Part shown: positions 9,369-22,784 of the stretch, piece by piece
Layout of the letters: every line of letters begins with the position of its first letter
How positions within the stretch are numbered: the first letter of the stretch is position 1
DNA from: an uncultured Rubrobacteraceae bacterium
Lineage (GTDB): Bacteria; Actinomycetota; Rubrobacteria; Rubrobacterales; Rubrobacteraceae
Direction of reading: 5' to 3'
Length of the DNA stretch: 22,784 nucleotides
NCBI GenBank assembly: GCA_902805985.1
Contig: CADCUW010000600.1
Location: 1 to 22,784, forward strand
Translations under genes and position numbers: made by a program
The notes under the pieces: generated by a model
What the model saw: the letters and a program-made list of their open reading frames with translations, nothing else
What the model was told of the DNA's origin: nothing
The model's database searches: none

Positions 9369-10967
9369 CTAGCTCCCCTCGTCCTCGTCGTCTGACTCGT
9401 CACCGGACGAGCCGTTCGCGCTCGCGTCGACGATGCTGCTCGTCTGCGGCTCGTAGTTCTCGTTGAAGCGCTCGACGGCGTCTTCGAGCTTCCCGCGCGT
9501 CTCGTCGGAGACCTGCTTCTCATCGCGGATGGTCGAGAGGATCTCGCCGTGGGAATCGCGCAGGTAGTCGCGGAACTGGCTCTCCCAGTCCGGGACGTCG
9601 CTCGTCTCGACATCGTCGAGGTAGCCGTTGGAGGCGGCGAAGATCACGGCGATCTGCTACTCGACCAGCATCGGCTCGCGCTCGTTCTGCTTGAGGATCG
9701 CCGTCAGGCGCTCCCCGCGGTTGAGCGACTGCTGGGTGGCCTGGTCGAGGTCGCTCCCGAACTGGGAGAAGCTCGCCAGCTCCTGATACTGGTTCAGGTC
9801 GAGCCGCAGGGTGCCGGCGACGCTCTTCATCGCCTTGATCTGCGCCGACGAGCCCACCCGGCTCACCGAGTTGCCGGTGTCGATGGCCGGACGCTGGCCC
9901 GAGTTGAACAGGTCGGAGTCGAGGAAGATCTGGCCGTCCGTGATCGAGATGACGTTGGTCGGGATGTACGCCGAGATGTCGCCCGCCTTGGTCTCGATGA
10001 CCGGCAGCGCCGTAAGCGACCCGCCACCGGCATCATCTGAGAGCTTCGCGGCCCGCTCCAGGAGGCGCGAGTGCAGGTAGAACACGTCGCCGGGGTACGC
10101 CTCGCGGCCCGGCGGGCGCCTGAGGAGCAGCATCATCTGCCGGTAGGCGACGGCGTGCTTGGAGAGGTCGTCGTAGATGACCAGCGCGTCCTCCCCCCGG
10201 TTCATGAAGTACTCGCCGATGGCGCAGCCCGAGTAGGGGGCGAGGTACTGCAGCGTCGCGGACTGGGAGGCCGAAGCATTCACGATGGTCGTGTACTCCA
10301 TGGCGCCAGCCTCTTCGAGCGAGGCGTAGAGGCCGGCGACCGAGGAGTCCTTCTGGCCGACGGCGACGTAGATGCACTTCACGTTCTGGTCGGCCTGGTT
10401 GATGATGGCGTCTACGAGCACCGAGGTCTTGCCCGTCTTGCGGTCCCCGATGACGAGCTCGCGCTGGCCGCGGCCTATCGGGATGATGGCATCGATGGCC
10501 TTGATGCCGGTCTGGAGCGGCTGCTTGACCGGCTGGCGCTTGATGATGCCGGGGGCGACGACCTCGACCGGGACCTGCTCATCGGCCTCGATCTCGCCCT
10601 TCCCGTCCATCGGACGCCCGAGGGCGTCTATGACCCTGCCGAGAACGCCCTCGCCGACCGGCACGCTCGCCAGCCGCTCGGTGCGGCGAACGGTGTTGCC
10701 CTCCTGGATGTGGGTATCGTCGCCGGCGATGATGACGCCGACGTTGTCCTCCTCCAGGTTGAGGGCGAGGCCCGTGATCTTGTTCCCCCGCGCGTCCTCG
10801 AAGTCGAGCATCTCCTGATACATGACGTTCGTGAGGCCGTGGACGCGCGCGATGCCGTCCCCGACCTCAAGCACCTGCCCGACCTCCTCGGTGCGGACCC
10901 GGTTCTCGTAGTCCGTTATGGCGCCTTTTAGTATGGAGGAGATCTCCTCCGGCCTGAGCCTACCCAC
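9369..10967 (-). CDS. atpA: F-type ATP synthase alpha subunit, interrupted by one in-frame TAG
   Basis: The full frame is 533 codons including the final TAG at 9371-9369. Landmarks are the beta-barrel start ([16 protein letters not shown]), P-loop GDRKTGKT at 174-181, the [12 protein letters not shown] segment and VSRVG with the arginine finger. At codon 437 (9659-9657) the codon is TAG, within [23 protein letters not shown]. Family members usually read PVEEQ here, so one GAG-to-TAG change explains it. The next 94 codons in the same frame are a normal alpha C-terminal helical domain plus an acidic tail ([11 protein letters not shown]). A separate 92-residue product could begin at GTG 9647, but its ribosome site is weak. 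GTG 10967 overlaps the atpH TAG. Truncation at 436 would remove part of the C-terminal domain. Whether this is an error, a mutation or readthrough cannot be decided from sequence alone. Confidence 0.93.
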
Positions 10968-19106: not shown

Positions 19107-19673
19107 TTACCCGGATGAACCGCCCGTCAATTTGCGAAGCGTCTCACCGGTAAACCCCTCCGTCGCCCGCAGAACCCGCGCCTTCCCACCCGAGAGATCG
19201 ACAACCGCAGAGGCCTCGCCGCTCCCGGGTTCGCCCTCCACCACGAGGTCGACGGCCGCTACCACCCCAGGGTCCACTTCAGCGAGCGACCGCGGCGCCT
19301 GCCTGCCCGAAGGGTTCGCGCTCGTCGCGTACAGGGGGCCACCAGAAGCACGAAGCACCCCCACGACGGCGCCGCCCGGAACGCGGACCCCCACGGTCCC
19401 TCCTCCGGCCATGTCCAGCACGAGCGTCAGCGGGCCGGGCCAGTGAGCCTCCGCCAGAGCGCGGGCGAACGGAGACACCTCGGCCGCGAGGGAGAACGCC
19501 TCCCCGGCCGACGCGCAGAGCAGGGCGAGCGGCTTGCCGGGGTCGCTGCCCTTGACCTCGTTGAGCCGTCGCGCCTCCGCGGCCACGAGCCCGACCACGG
19601 TATCGGTCGGCACCAGCACCACCCCGCCGTCGCGCAGAACGGACGCCGCCTCGCCGGCCGAACCCGCCCTCAT
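19107..19673 (-). CDS. L-threonylcarbamoyladenylate synthase (Sua5/YrdC/TsaC)
   Basis: This enzyme makes threonylcarbamoyl-AMP from Thr, bicarbonate and ATP for the t6A37 modification of ANN-decoding tRNAs. The 188-residue protein covers one YrdC domain, with GGVVLVPTDTVVGLVA, WPGPLTLVL, VGVRVPGG and YATSANPSG. The usual KxR motif reads KGSDPGKPLALL, so the Arg is Ser, a variation in a substrate-binding motif. I prefer ATG 19673, whose ATGA overlaps the prmC stop. GTG 19682 would add three residues. The Sua5 C-terminal domain is absent, so it is the short TsaC type. Position after prfA-prmC is conserved in many Gram-positive bacteria. Confidence 0.92.
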   Translation of the reverse strand: MRAGSAGEAASVLRDGGVVLVPTDTVVGLVAAEARRLNEVKGSDPGKPLALLCASAGEAFSLAAEVSPFARALAEAHWPGPLTLVLDMAGGGTVGVRVPGGAVVGVLRASGGPLYATSANPSGRQAPRSLAEVDPGVVAAVDLVVEGEPGSGEASAVVDLSGGKARVLRATEGFTGETLRKLTGGSSG

Positions 19674-20530
19674 CCATCCCACCTGAGCAGCGCCGTGCGG
19701 GGAGATCCGGCAAGGTCTTCGCGAAGACCGAGCGGCACGAACCCGGCGTCCTGGCCAAGGTCGAGGACCGACTCCCCCTGCCCGTCCCCCACCTCCAACA
19801 CGACATCCGCGCCGTCCTTCAGCAGCGGCGGCGCCTCCTCGAAGATGCGGCGGTAGAAGAGGAGGCCGTCCGGCCCACCGTCAAGGGCCCATCGGGGGTC
19901 CCAGTCGCGTACCTCTGGCGCAAGTTTCTCAAGGGCCCCGGCCTCGACGTACGGTGGGTTGGAGACCAGCAGGTCCACTGCCCCCTCAAGGATGGCGAGC
20001 CCGTCAAACAGGTCAGCGTGGTGGAAATGGACGGCCGCACTGTTCTCTCCGGCGTTCCTCTCGGCGGCTTCGAGCGCCTTCTTCGAGAGGTCCGTGGCGT
20101 GTACCGTGGCGCTGGGCCGTTCCTGGGCGATGGAGATCGCCACGGCGCCCGAGCCGGTCCCGACGTCCAGGACGACGCCCCCGCCGCCACGCCTGTCGAT
20201 GATCTCGATGGCGGAGCCCGCCACGCTCTCGGTGTCGGGGCGTGGGATCAGGGTCTCCTCGTTCAGGTCCAGGACGAGGTTGCGGAAGTATGCGCGCCCC
20301 AGTATCCGCTGCACGGGCTCCCGGTTCGACCGGCGTTCGATCCAGGCCTCGTAGAGTCTCGCCTGCTCGTCGTCTAGCGGTGGTTCGTACAAGGAGATCT
20401 CACCCCGCCGGATGCCGAGAAGCTCCGAGATGAGGATCTCCGCGGAGGCCCCGGGCTCGGGGACACCGGCTTCCTGGAGTTCCCGAGTTGCCCTACGCGC
20501 GGCGTCCCTGGCGCGGAGGCCGGTCTGCAC
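19670..20530 (-). CDS. prmC: Peptide chain release factor N5-glutamine methyltransferase
   Basis: PrmC methylates the Gln of the GGQ motif in release factors, using SAM. The 286 residues have an N-terminal helical domain (about 1-85), the SAM loop LDVGTGSGAV at 121-130 and the catalytic NPPY at 191-194, preceded by LLVS. GTG 20530 lies 3 bases after the prfA stop. Its direct substrate, RF1, is encoded immediately upstream. It overlaps the next gene by four or thirteen bases depending on that gene's start. Confidence 0.97.
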   Translation of the reverse strand: MQTGLRARDAARRATRELQEAGVPEPGASAEILISELLGIRRGEISLYEPPLDDEQARLYEAWIERRSNREPVQRILGRAYFRNLVLDLNEETLIPRPDTESVAGSAIEIIDRRGGGGVVLDVGTGSGAVAISIAQERPSATVHATDLSKKALEAAERNAGENSAAVHFHHADLFDGLAILEGAVDLLVSNPPYVEAGALEKLAPEVRDWDPRWALDGGPDGLLFYRRIFEEAPPLLKDGADVVLEVGDGQGESVLDLGQDAGFVPLGLREDLAGSPRTALLRWDG

Positions 20531-20533
20531 CGA

Positions 20534-21634
20534 TCAGCTAGCGCTAGGGGTTCCGGCGGCCTCGGCGGCGAGCTTCTCGGAGCGCTCCTTGGCGGCCAGC
20601 GCCCGGGTGAACTCCTCGAGGTCGCCTCCCAGGGTGGCCTCTAGGTTGTGGGAGGTGACGCCGACGCGGTGGTCGGTGATGCGCCCCTGCGGGAAGTTGT
20701 ACGTGCGGACCTTCGCCGAGCGGTCTCCGGTGCCGACCTGGGCCTGGCGGAGGGCGCCCTCTTCCTGGGCGCGCTCCTGCATCTCGCGTTCGAGGAGGCG
20801 GCTTTTCAGGATCTTCATGGCCTGCTCCTTGTTCTGGAGCTGGCTCTTCTCGTTCTGGCAGGTGACGACGAGGCCCGTTGGCTTGTGCGTGATGCGCACC
20901 GCGGAGTCCGTGGTGTTCACGCTCTGGCCGCCCGGGCCGCTGGAGCGGTAGACGTCTATCTCCAGATCTCCCGAGTTGATCTGAACGTCCACGTCCTCGG
21001 CCTCCGGCAGAACGGCGACGGTCGCCGTGGACGTGTGGATCCGGCCCTGGCTCTCGGTCTTCGGGACGCGCTGTACCCGGTGCGTGCCGCCCTCGTGCTT
21101 GAAGACGGAGAAGGCCCCGTCGCCCTGCACCTCGAGGGAGACCTCGCGGTAGCCGCCGACCTCGGCCGGGCTGGAGGAGAGCGTATCGTGCTTAAACCGG
21201 AGGCGTTCGGCGTAGCGCGAGTACATCTCCATCAACTCGCCCGCGAAGAGGGCGGCCTCATCACCGCCGGCTCCGGCCCGGATCTCGATGATCACGTCCT
21301 TATCGTCGTTCGGGTCGCGGTCGATAAGCTCCGTTCGAATAGTCTCGGAGAGCTCCTCGATCTTCTCCTCCGCCTCCCGCGCCTCCGCCGCGTAGAACTC
21401 CCGCTCCTCGGCGTCTTCGGCCTGCGGGACGAGTTCCCTGGCCTCCTTCTCGGCCTCCACGGCGCGGAGGAGTTCCTTGCTCATCTCGGCACCCCGCCTC
21501 ATGCGGGAGTGCTCCTTGGCGACCTCGGCGTAGTGGCGCTGGTCGCTGTAGATGTTCGGGTCCGAGAGTTCTTTTGTGAGTGCTTCGTAGCGGCCGAGGG
21601 TCTCCTCGGCCAGCTTCAAGACCTGCTCGTCCAT
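20534..21634 (-). CDS. prfA: Peptide chain release factor 1
   Basis: RF1 terminates translation at UAA and UAG. The 366-residue protein has the N-terminal coiled domain (1-105), [15 protein letters not shown] at 118-132, the codon-recognition PxT motif as PKT at 191-193 followed by ESQGRIHTS, and the catalytic GGQ at 235-237 in [10 protein letters not shown]. Nothing essential is missing, so UAG should be read efficiently as stop in this organism. That bears on the TAG inside atpA. ATG 21634 overlaps the upstream TGA by one base (TGATG). The frame stays open upstream to 22360, but that part is antiphase to the DUF1385 gene. Confidence 0.98.
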
Positions 21635-22548
21635 CAGATCACCAGCTTGTTCGTGGCCTCGTTCGGCTCTATCTTCGCCTGCTCCTCCATCGAGAGCACC
21701 CTCTTCAGGGACGCCATCGCCACCTCTACCATGTCGTCGGTAGGCTCCCTCGTGGTCAGCCGCTGCATCTGAAGACCGGGCCAGACGAGTACCTTGACCA
21801 GCGGGCTCTTCTCGTTGCGCGCGCTCCACATGATGAACTCGAAAGCTATTCCAGCCACGAGCGGGATGACGACGACCCGGCTCGCCAGCATGTAGAGCCA
21901 GCCCTCGACACCCAACAGCGAGAAGGCCAGGATCGAGAGGACCAGCACGTACAGGACGAAGCTCGTCCCGCAGCGGACGTGGCTCGTGTCCAGCTTGTGC
22001 GAGTTCTCCGGGACGAGCTCCTCGCCCCGCTCGTAGACCTTTATCGCCTTGTGCTCGGCACCGTGGTAGGCGAAGAAGCGTTTGATGTCCTTGCTGATCC
22101 AGGTGATACCCAAGATGTAGAGGATGAAGATCCCGATCCGGATCGCACCCTCTATCAAATTGAACAGTACCGGGTTCTCGATGCTCGTCCCGGCCAGCGC
22201 CCCGAGCCCCTTCGTCCCGAAGACCGGGGCGACCAGAAAGAGCCCGAAACCGAGCACGAGCGCGAAGAGGAGCGTACCCGCGATCTCCTTCTTGGAGAGC
22301 TCCTCTTCCTCGCCGAGCGCGATGTTCGTCGAGAGGGTGAGCGCCTTCATCCCGAGCCACAGCGTCTCCCCGAGGGAGAGCGCCCCCCGGATGATCGGCA
22401 GCCTGAAGAGCCTGCTCTTGCGGGTTATGGAGCGGAAAGGCTCGGCCCGGAGTTCCACGTTGCCTTCGGGAGAGCGCACCGCCATCCCCCAGAAGTTGGG
22501 GGAGCGCATCAGCACGCCCTCCATTATGGCCTGGCCGCCGACCCTCAA
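21634..22548 (-). CDS. DUF1385 family integral membrane protein
   Basis: This 304-residue polytopic membrane protein has the family opening [31 protein letters not shown] and the conserved [16 protein letters not shown] followed by HVRCGTSF. There are about four or five hydrophobic segments (about 87-110, 125-150, 205-225, 228-250). Its molecular function is unknown. It is almost always found beside rpmE and prfA in Gram-positive bacteria, as here. The start is TTG 22548 with a G-rich ribosome site, 10 bases after the rpmE stop. Its stop overlaps the prfA ATG. Confidence 0.93.
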
Positions 22549-22558
22549 GCGGTGCCCC

Positions 22559-22784
22559 CTACTGCCGGTTCTGGCGGGCCTGACGGCGGTTCTCGAAGCG
22601 CTGCACCCGGCCGCCGGTGTCCACTATGCGCTGCTTGCCGGTGTAGAACGGGTGGCTGGCGCTCGAGATATCCAGCTCCACGAGCGGGTACTCGTTGCCG
22701 TCCTCCCAGGTGACCGTGCGGCTCGTCTCTATCGTCGAGCGGGAGAGGATCGCGAAGTCCGCGCTGTTGTCGCGGAACACGACC
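22559..22784 (-). CDS. rpmE2: 50S ribosomal protein L31 type B, 5' end outside window
   Basis: At least 75 residues of L31 are visible, cut at the N-terminus by the window edge. The signature [18 protein letters not shown] is clear. The region [20 protein letters not shown] with no Cys is the type B (C-minus, zinc-free) form, which many bacteria use under zinc limitation or as the main copy. The first GTG in the window (22780) is probably an internal Val codon: type B proteins usually have about 11 further residues before [10 protein letters not shown]. It leads the DUF1385-prfA-prmC run and ends with TAG. Confidence 0.95.

Follow-up and report, generated by a model that had tools for sequence, protein, structure and literature searches.

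An in-frame TAG in atpA of a fragmented Rubrobacteraceae draft genome, best explained as a one-base consensus error

Main

In the window, by which we mean the whole stretch of 22,784 nucleotides analysed here, the gene for the F1 ATP synthase subunit alpha (atpA) carries an in-frame TAG at codon 437, where relatives read GAG, in a gene that is otherwise conserved. The draft genome is fragmented and seems to mix related strains, and we consider a one-base consensus error the best explanation, with a probability of roughly 55%. The coding-strand T would stand in place of a G, wrong in the consensus rather than mutated in the cell; the organism itself would most likely have an ordinary, intact atpA, and the TAG would be without function.

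Results

The atpA frame is interrupted within its C-terminal domain

The minus strand of the window holds an ordinary atp operon with murA after it. The atpA frame begins at GTG 10967 on this strand and spans 533 codons including the final stop: codons 1–436 (9660..10967) encode the beta-barrel, the nucleotide-binding domain and the first half of the C-terminal domain (TIGR00962, E=2.2e-222, and Pfam), the TAG follows at 9659–9657, and the same-frame tail (9369..9656), holding the second half of PF00306, runs for 95 open codons to a final TAG at 9371–9369. The stop with its intact same-frame tail, described in an earlier note made from the sequence alone, is present in the sequence; the note gave 94 codons after it, and we counted 95. 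With X placed at the TAG, the protein matched the full PF00306 (residues 376–501, E=1.8e-46), so the TAG cuts the C-terminal domain. Codons 1–436 alone scored 739.2 bits against TIGR00962, above the curated cut-off of 484.45, while the single uninterrupted reading frame of the family is broken at codon 437. Among 43 candidates from a first coding-potential scan of sampled contigs, the atpA TAG ranked first by the lowest of four scores, and is therefore not a chance feature of an open frame.

Relatives have a sense codon at position 437

A search with the tail matched 36 of 60 genomes, the organism's own included. Loci were given for 29 of the 35 others, and in the 26 that were readable at position 437 the residue was Glu in 24, Met in one and Gln in one, with no stop. 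Among genomes of the same genus, six of eight had GAG and the remaining two gave no match to the atpA tail. Further afield, the best 80 of 593 loci in distant bacteria, with the stretch shown for 70 (a few out of register), contained no stop. Nor was there one among 120 homologous proteins (Glu 107, Met 11, Gln 1 and Asp 1), a set of full-length predicted proteins and thus biased against stops. A stop conserved at the same place, as expected for recoding, was accordingly absent from these 26 loci and 120 proteins. Two apparent stops in relatives, in atpC of genome G003 and murA of genome G004, were natural C-terminal ends.

Codon 437 is GAG in G003, the closest relative, and in G004, G006 and G007, in agreement with the single GAG-to-TAG change that had been proposed; since the closest genome has GAG, one G-to-T change explains the TAG, and this favours a consensus error. 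A single substitution would be enough, too, for a real nonsense mutation of very recent date, carried by one strain within a mixed population or by a lineage whose ATP synthase is defective. We regard such a mutation as possible rather than probable.

The gene around the stop is not decaying

Besides the stop, the window protein has only two residues private to it against the 120 homologs, V183 and L434 (the count covers columns with at least 100 letters and thus stops short of the very end of the protein). L434 (CTG, 9666..9668, minus strand) lies three codons before the TAG, where 107 of 120 homologs have Pro and the closest relative has CCG (P434L); the chance of so close a pair among three private sites is about 0.033. 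The small number of private residues and the position of L434 near the TAG both favour a consensus error. For a nonsense mutation the adjoining P434L is a weakness, as it fits an error equally well.

Compared with G003, codons 389–451 differ by three nonsynonymous changes (428, 434 and 437) and by no synonymous one, and the rest of atpA shows 55 synonymous differences. For a stretch of 63 codons to lack synonymous differences altogether, the chance is about 0.0007, a value calculated with 54 such differences and for a tract picked after the fact. With no synonymous differences, the tract gives the impression of recent sharing with the G003 lineage, and the few differences it does have resemble unselected ones, as errors or very young mutations would; this appearance likewise favours a consensus error.

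For the tail (columns 438–515), dN/dS from the window to G003, G006, G004 and G007 was 0.25, 0.62, 1.03 and 0.41, respectively, against 0.30–0.64 between intact relatives; the value of 1.03, above that range, is based on seven synonymous changes. Tail dN from the window to G006, G004 and G007 (0.134, 0.157 and 0.190) was close to that from the intact G003 to the same genomes (0.125, 0.144 and 0.188). Judged by its codons, the tail is not visibly decaying. Pseudogene decay of atpA was rejected, given the few private residues and a tail dN close to that of G003. A gene that is not decaying is also what a very recent nonsense mutation would leave behind. The loss of ATP synthase alpha should be costly, and this weighs against such a mutation, as only a single atpA was found.

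The assembly is fragmented and appears to mix strains

The window is the whole of one contig in a 4.23 Mb assembly of 707 contigs, 88.62% complete and with 5.93% contamination, and from these values we infer a metagenome bin. The named proteins nearest to the window AtpA are from Rubrobacter. We fetched 101 of the 706 other contigs, 63 of which were readable, making 573 kb together with the window. All 38 fetched contigs of 2747 bases or fewer consisted of N throughout and made up 13% of the fetched bases, and the 63 readable ones were all of 3624 bases or more; the short contigs of the assembly thus appear to be masked. Within six pairs of sampled contigs the two members matched at 88–97% identity, over lengths of 142 to 1468 bases. 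Although paralogues are possible, this points to related strains or species binned together, and we infer that the bin mixes related strains. A fragmented, contaminated assembly with matching contig pairs of this kind favours a consensus error at the atpA TAG.

At one edge of the window, the last 107 bases (22678–22784) match, at every position, the first 107 of contig C546 (L148:1–107), which carries rho. The assembly breaks here despite the overlap of the contigs, and strain variation can cause such breaks.

Other domain-internal stops occur in the same assembly

A coding-potential scan of the 573 kb gave 35 candidate in-frame stops, of which 33, that of atpA among them, were searched against Pfam (E 0.001 or E 1e-6). 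A domain extended across the stop in three, domains lay beside it in 20 and no family was found in ten. One of these three domain-internal stops is the atpA TAG; the others are a TAA in a protein kinase and a TAG in a phage-type integrase. The count excludes a TAG in a Prim-Pol protein (L175), which lay outside the matched domain.

The kinase gene (L180:8917–11061, minus strand) has PASTA domains and its TAA near the start of the kinase domain. The corresponding codon was TAC in all four homologs in which the motif was found (eight were looked at) and in G003. Four codons before the TAA there is a Met-to-Ile difference to G003, and the kinase belongs to a large paralogous family. In the integrase (L200:6528–8153, minus strand) the in-frame TAG is inside the Phage_integrase domain. 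Recoding specific to TAG was rejected as a common cause, the two stops besides that of atpA being a TAA (kinase) and a TAG (integrase). In atpA and the kinase alike the change is G:C to T:A, and two cases prove nothing.

The two further stops inside Pfam domains favour a consensus error in atpA. Three events in 573 kb would correspond to about 22 per genome (roughly 5–65) with mixed stop types, and at such a rate no special mechanism is required to account for a stop in a conserved gene of this assembly. In a control of 400 kb of G006 (two contigs, completeness 97), none of 18 candidates was spanned by a domain and one had no family. Against a consensus error, the excess over this control was not significant: the chance that all three would be in the larger sample is about 0.20, and that of zero in 400 kb at the same rate about 0.12. 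The integrase and the kinase, besides, could be genuine pseudogenes. The remaining atp genes of the window, moreover, are open along their full length.

A direct comparison with G006 also counts against a consensus error, as it suggests no high error rate. G006 ORFs aligned to the own-genome sample over about 44 kb gave 16 rows with stops, and the reverse direction gave five; we judged by eye that all of these were in antisense or non-coding ORFs, and with no stop judged to be within a real gene there was no sign of a high error rate. The same comparison gave a multi-frame match (L256/L180): at L180:12318–13221 a G006 ORF was matched in two frames, at 97.9% identity in one and 85.5% in the other, which may mean a frameshift.

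No second atpA found and little sign of a two-piece alpha subunit

Searches of the organism's own genome with PF00006, PF00306 and DNA, in an incomplete assembly with short contigs apparently masked, found no second atpA. A third PF00006 match was Rho and not atpA. With about 11% of the genome missing and short contigs apparently masked, a second atpA or a suppressor tRNA lying there would be missed.

That alpha is made as two pieces, through re-initiation at GTG 9647 (9645..9647, minus strand), seems to us barely credible. A 92-amino-acid ORF (9369–9647) does start at this GTG, and its start has counterparts elsewhere: P0147, a 92-amino-acid AtpA tail on a 689-bp contig, starts at the same GTG, and the start of P0162 (885-bp contig), a protein of a more distant relative, is in the same position. 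The break, however, would fall inside PF00306, and by eye there is no GGAGG-like site before the GTG; because of this, and because the relatives read keep one uninterrupted frame, re-initiation is disfavoured. The other tail proteins from the same search begin at a variety of internal codons, and of its 17 tail proteins 16 are on contigs of 3312 bases or fewer, so that contig edges explain the start of P0147 as well. That start could be a contig edge or reflect an upstream stop in a related strain; P0147 is, apart from its first residue, identical to the tail of the full-length P0001. A search with the first 436 residues likewise returned no shortened alpha among the best 120 of 8000 scored, the shortest of these being 520 amino acids.

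The termination machinery is intact and TAG serves as a stop

The frame of prfA (20534..22360, minus strand), encoding RF1, is intact, with the RF1 match at residues 254–597, and prmC (19670..20530, minus strand), encoding the methyltransferase of release factors, is intact as well. Upstream of the RF1 match the prfA frame has about 240 open codons with no Pfam domain in them, probably just a long open frame in GC-rich DNA. TAG ends seven of the 14 gene ends checked (murA, atpC, atpD, atpG, the atpA end, atpH and atpE), exactly the seven that the earlier note had listed. Its view of RF1 as normal holds with the intact prfA frame, and its judgement that genome-wide recoding is unlikely is borne out by intact RF1 and PrmC and by the use of TAG as a stop: recoding would have RF1 lost or UAG abandoned as a stop, and here RF1 is intact and six other genes end in TAG.

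No CUA anticodon was present among the 32 tRNAs found, a census without tRNAs for Asp, Glu, His, Ile, Lys and Phe. The absence of tRNAs for six amino acids is more than a completeness of 88.6% suggests, and masked short contigs may explain it. A search for PylS in the incomplete, partly masked assembly gave one weak match, which scored 26.8 bits where the cut-off is 178.15.

Local UAG readthrough or nonsense suppression, yielding a full-length alpha, is in our judgement unlikely. The conserved tail would be expected under readthrough also, and with six amino acids missing from the tRNA census a suppressor could be missed; one study (PMC7918605) argues that bacteria frequently read through in-frame stops. 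It is disfavoured mostly because the TAG occurs in no relative read and RF1 is intact; an intact PrmC, six other window genes ending in TAG, the lack of CUA among the tRNAs found and a PylS score below cut-off add to this, and PMC7918605 itself assumes the vast majority of its cases to be without functional recoding. Very unlikely, too, is a TAG that is real and fixed, with a suppressor tRNA in the unsearchable part of the genome, or leaky termination, yielding enough full-length alpha from the single gene. Special decoding of atpA is unsupported, as nothing we found points to it. Proof of readthrough would make this atpA a striking example of a core bacterial gene that relies on UAG suppression.

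Discussion

Four options had been put forward in the earlier note. The two that take the TAG as an error or a recent nonsense mutation fit the evidence; readthrough is without positive support and re-initiation at GTG 9647 is disfavoured. We retain the one-base consensus error as the best explanation. Where a draft genome is fragmented, a lone in-frame stop in an important gene needs a check against reads before recoding is claimed.

In PMC7918605, in-frame stops are described as widespread in bacterial genes. The sources it gives are annotation artefacts, sequencing errors, pseudogenes and functional genes with premature stops, and it assumes the vast majority of cases to be without functional recoding. 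The study also states that such stops in bacteria tend to persist only at the scale of population polymorphism, a point in favour of a very recent nonsense mutation in atpA. The literature matches listed included no stop in a Rubrobacter atpA. The stops of that study and the atpA TAG alike lie in a gene with purifying selection on both sides; the study, however, kept stops common to at least two species, whereas the atpA TAG was seen in one draft genome.

With UAG decoding by pyrrolysine or a suppressor tRNA, the case shares an in-frame UAG and a conserved tail. It differs in that the genome of the window has an intact RF1 and uses TAG as a stop, and in that its searchable part holds no PylS above the cut-off and no CUA tRNA. 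The closest likeness is to AtpA itself (TIGR00962): the window gene has the same domains and the operon order atpB-E-F-H-A-G-D-C, its protein is 96% identical to a full-length protein, and it departs from the family in the TAG that occupies codon 437, a sense codon in the relatives read.
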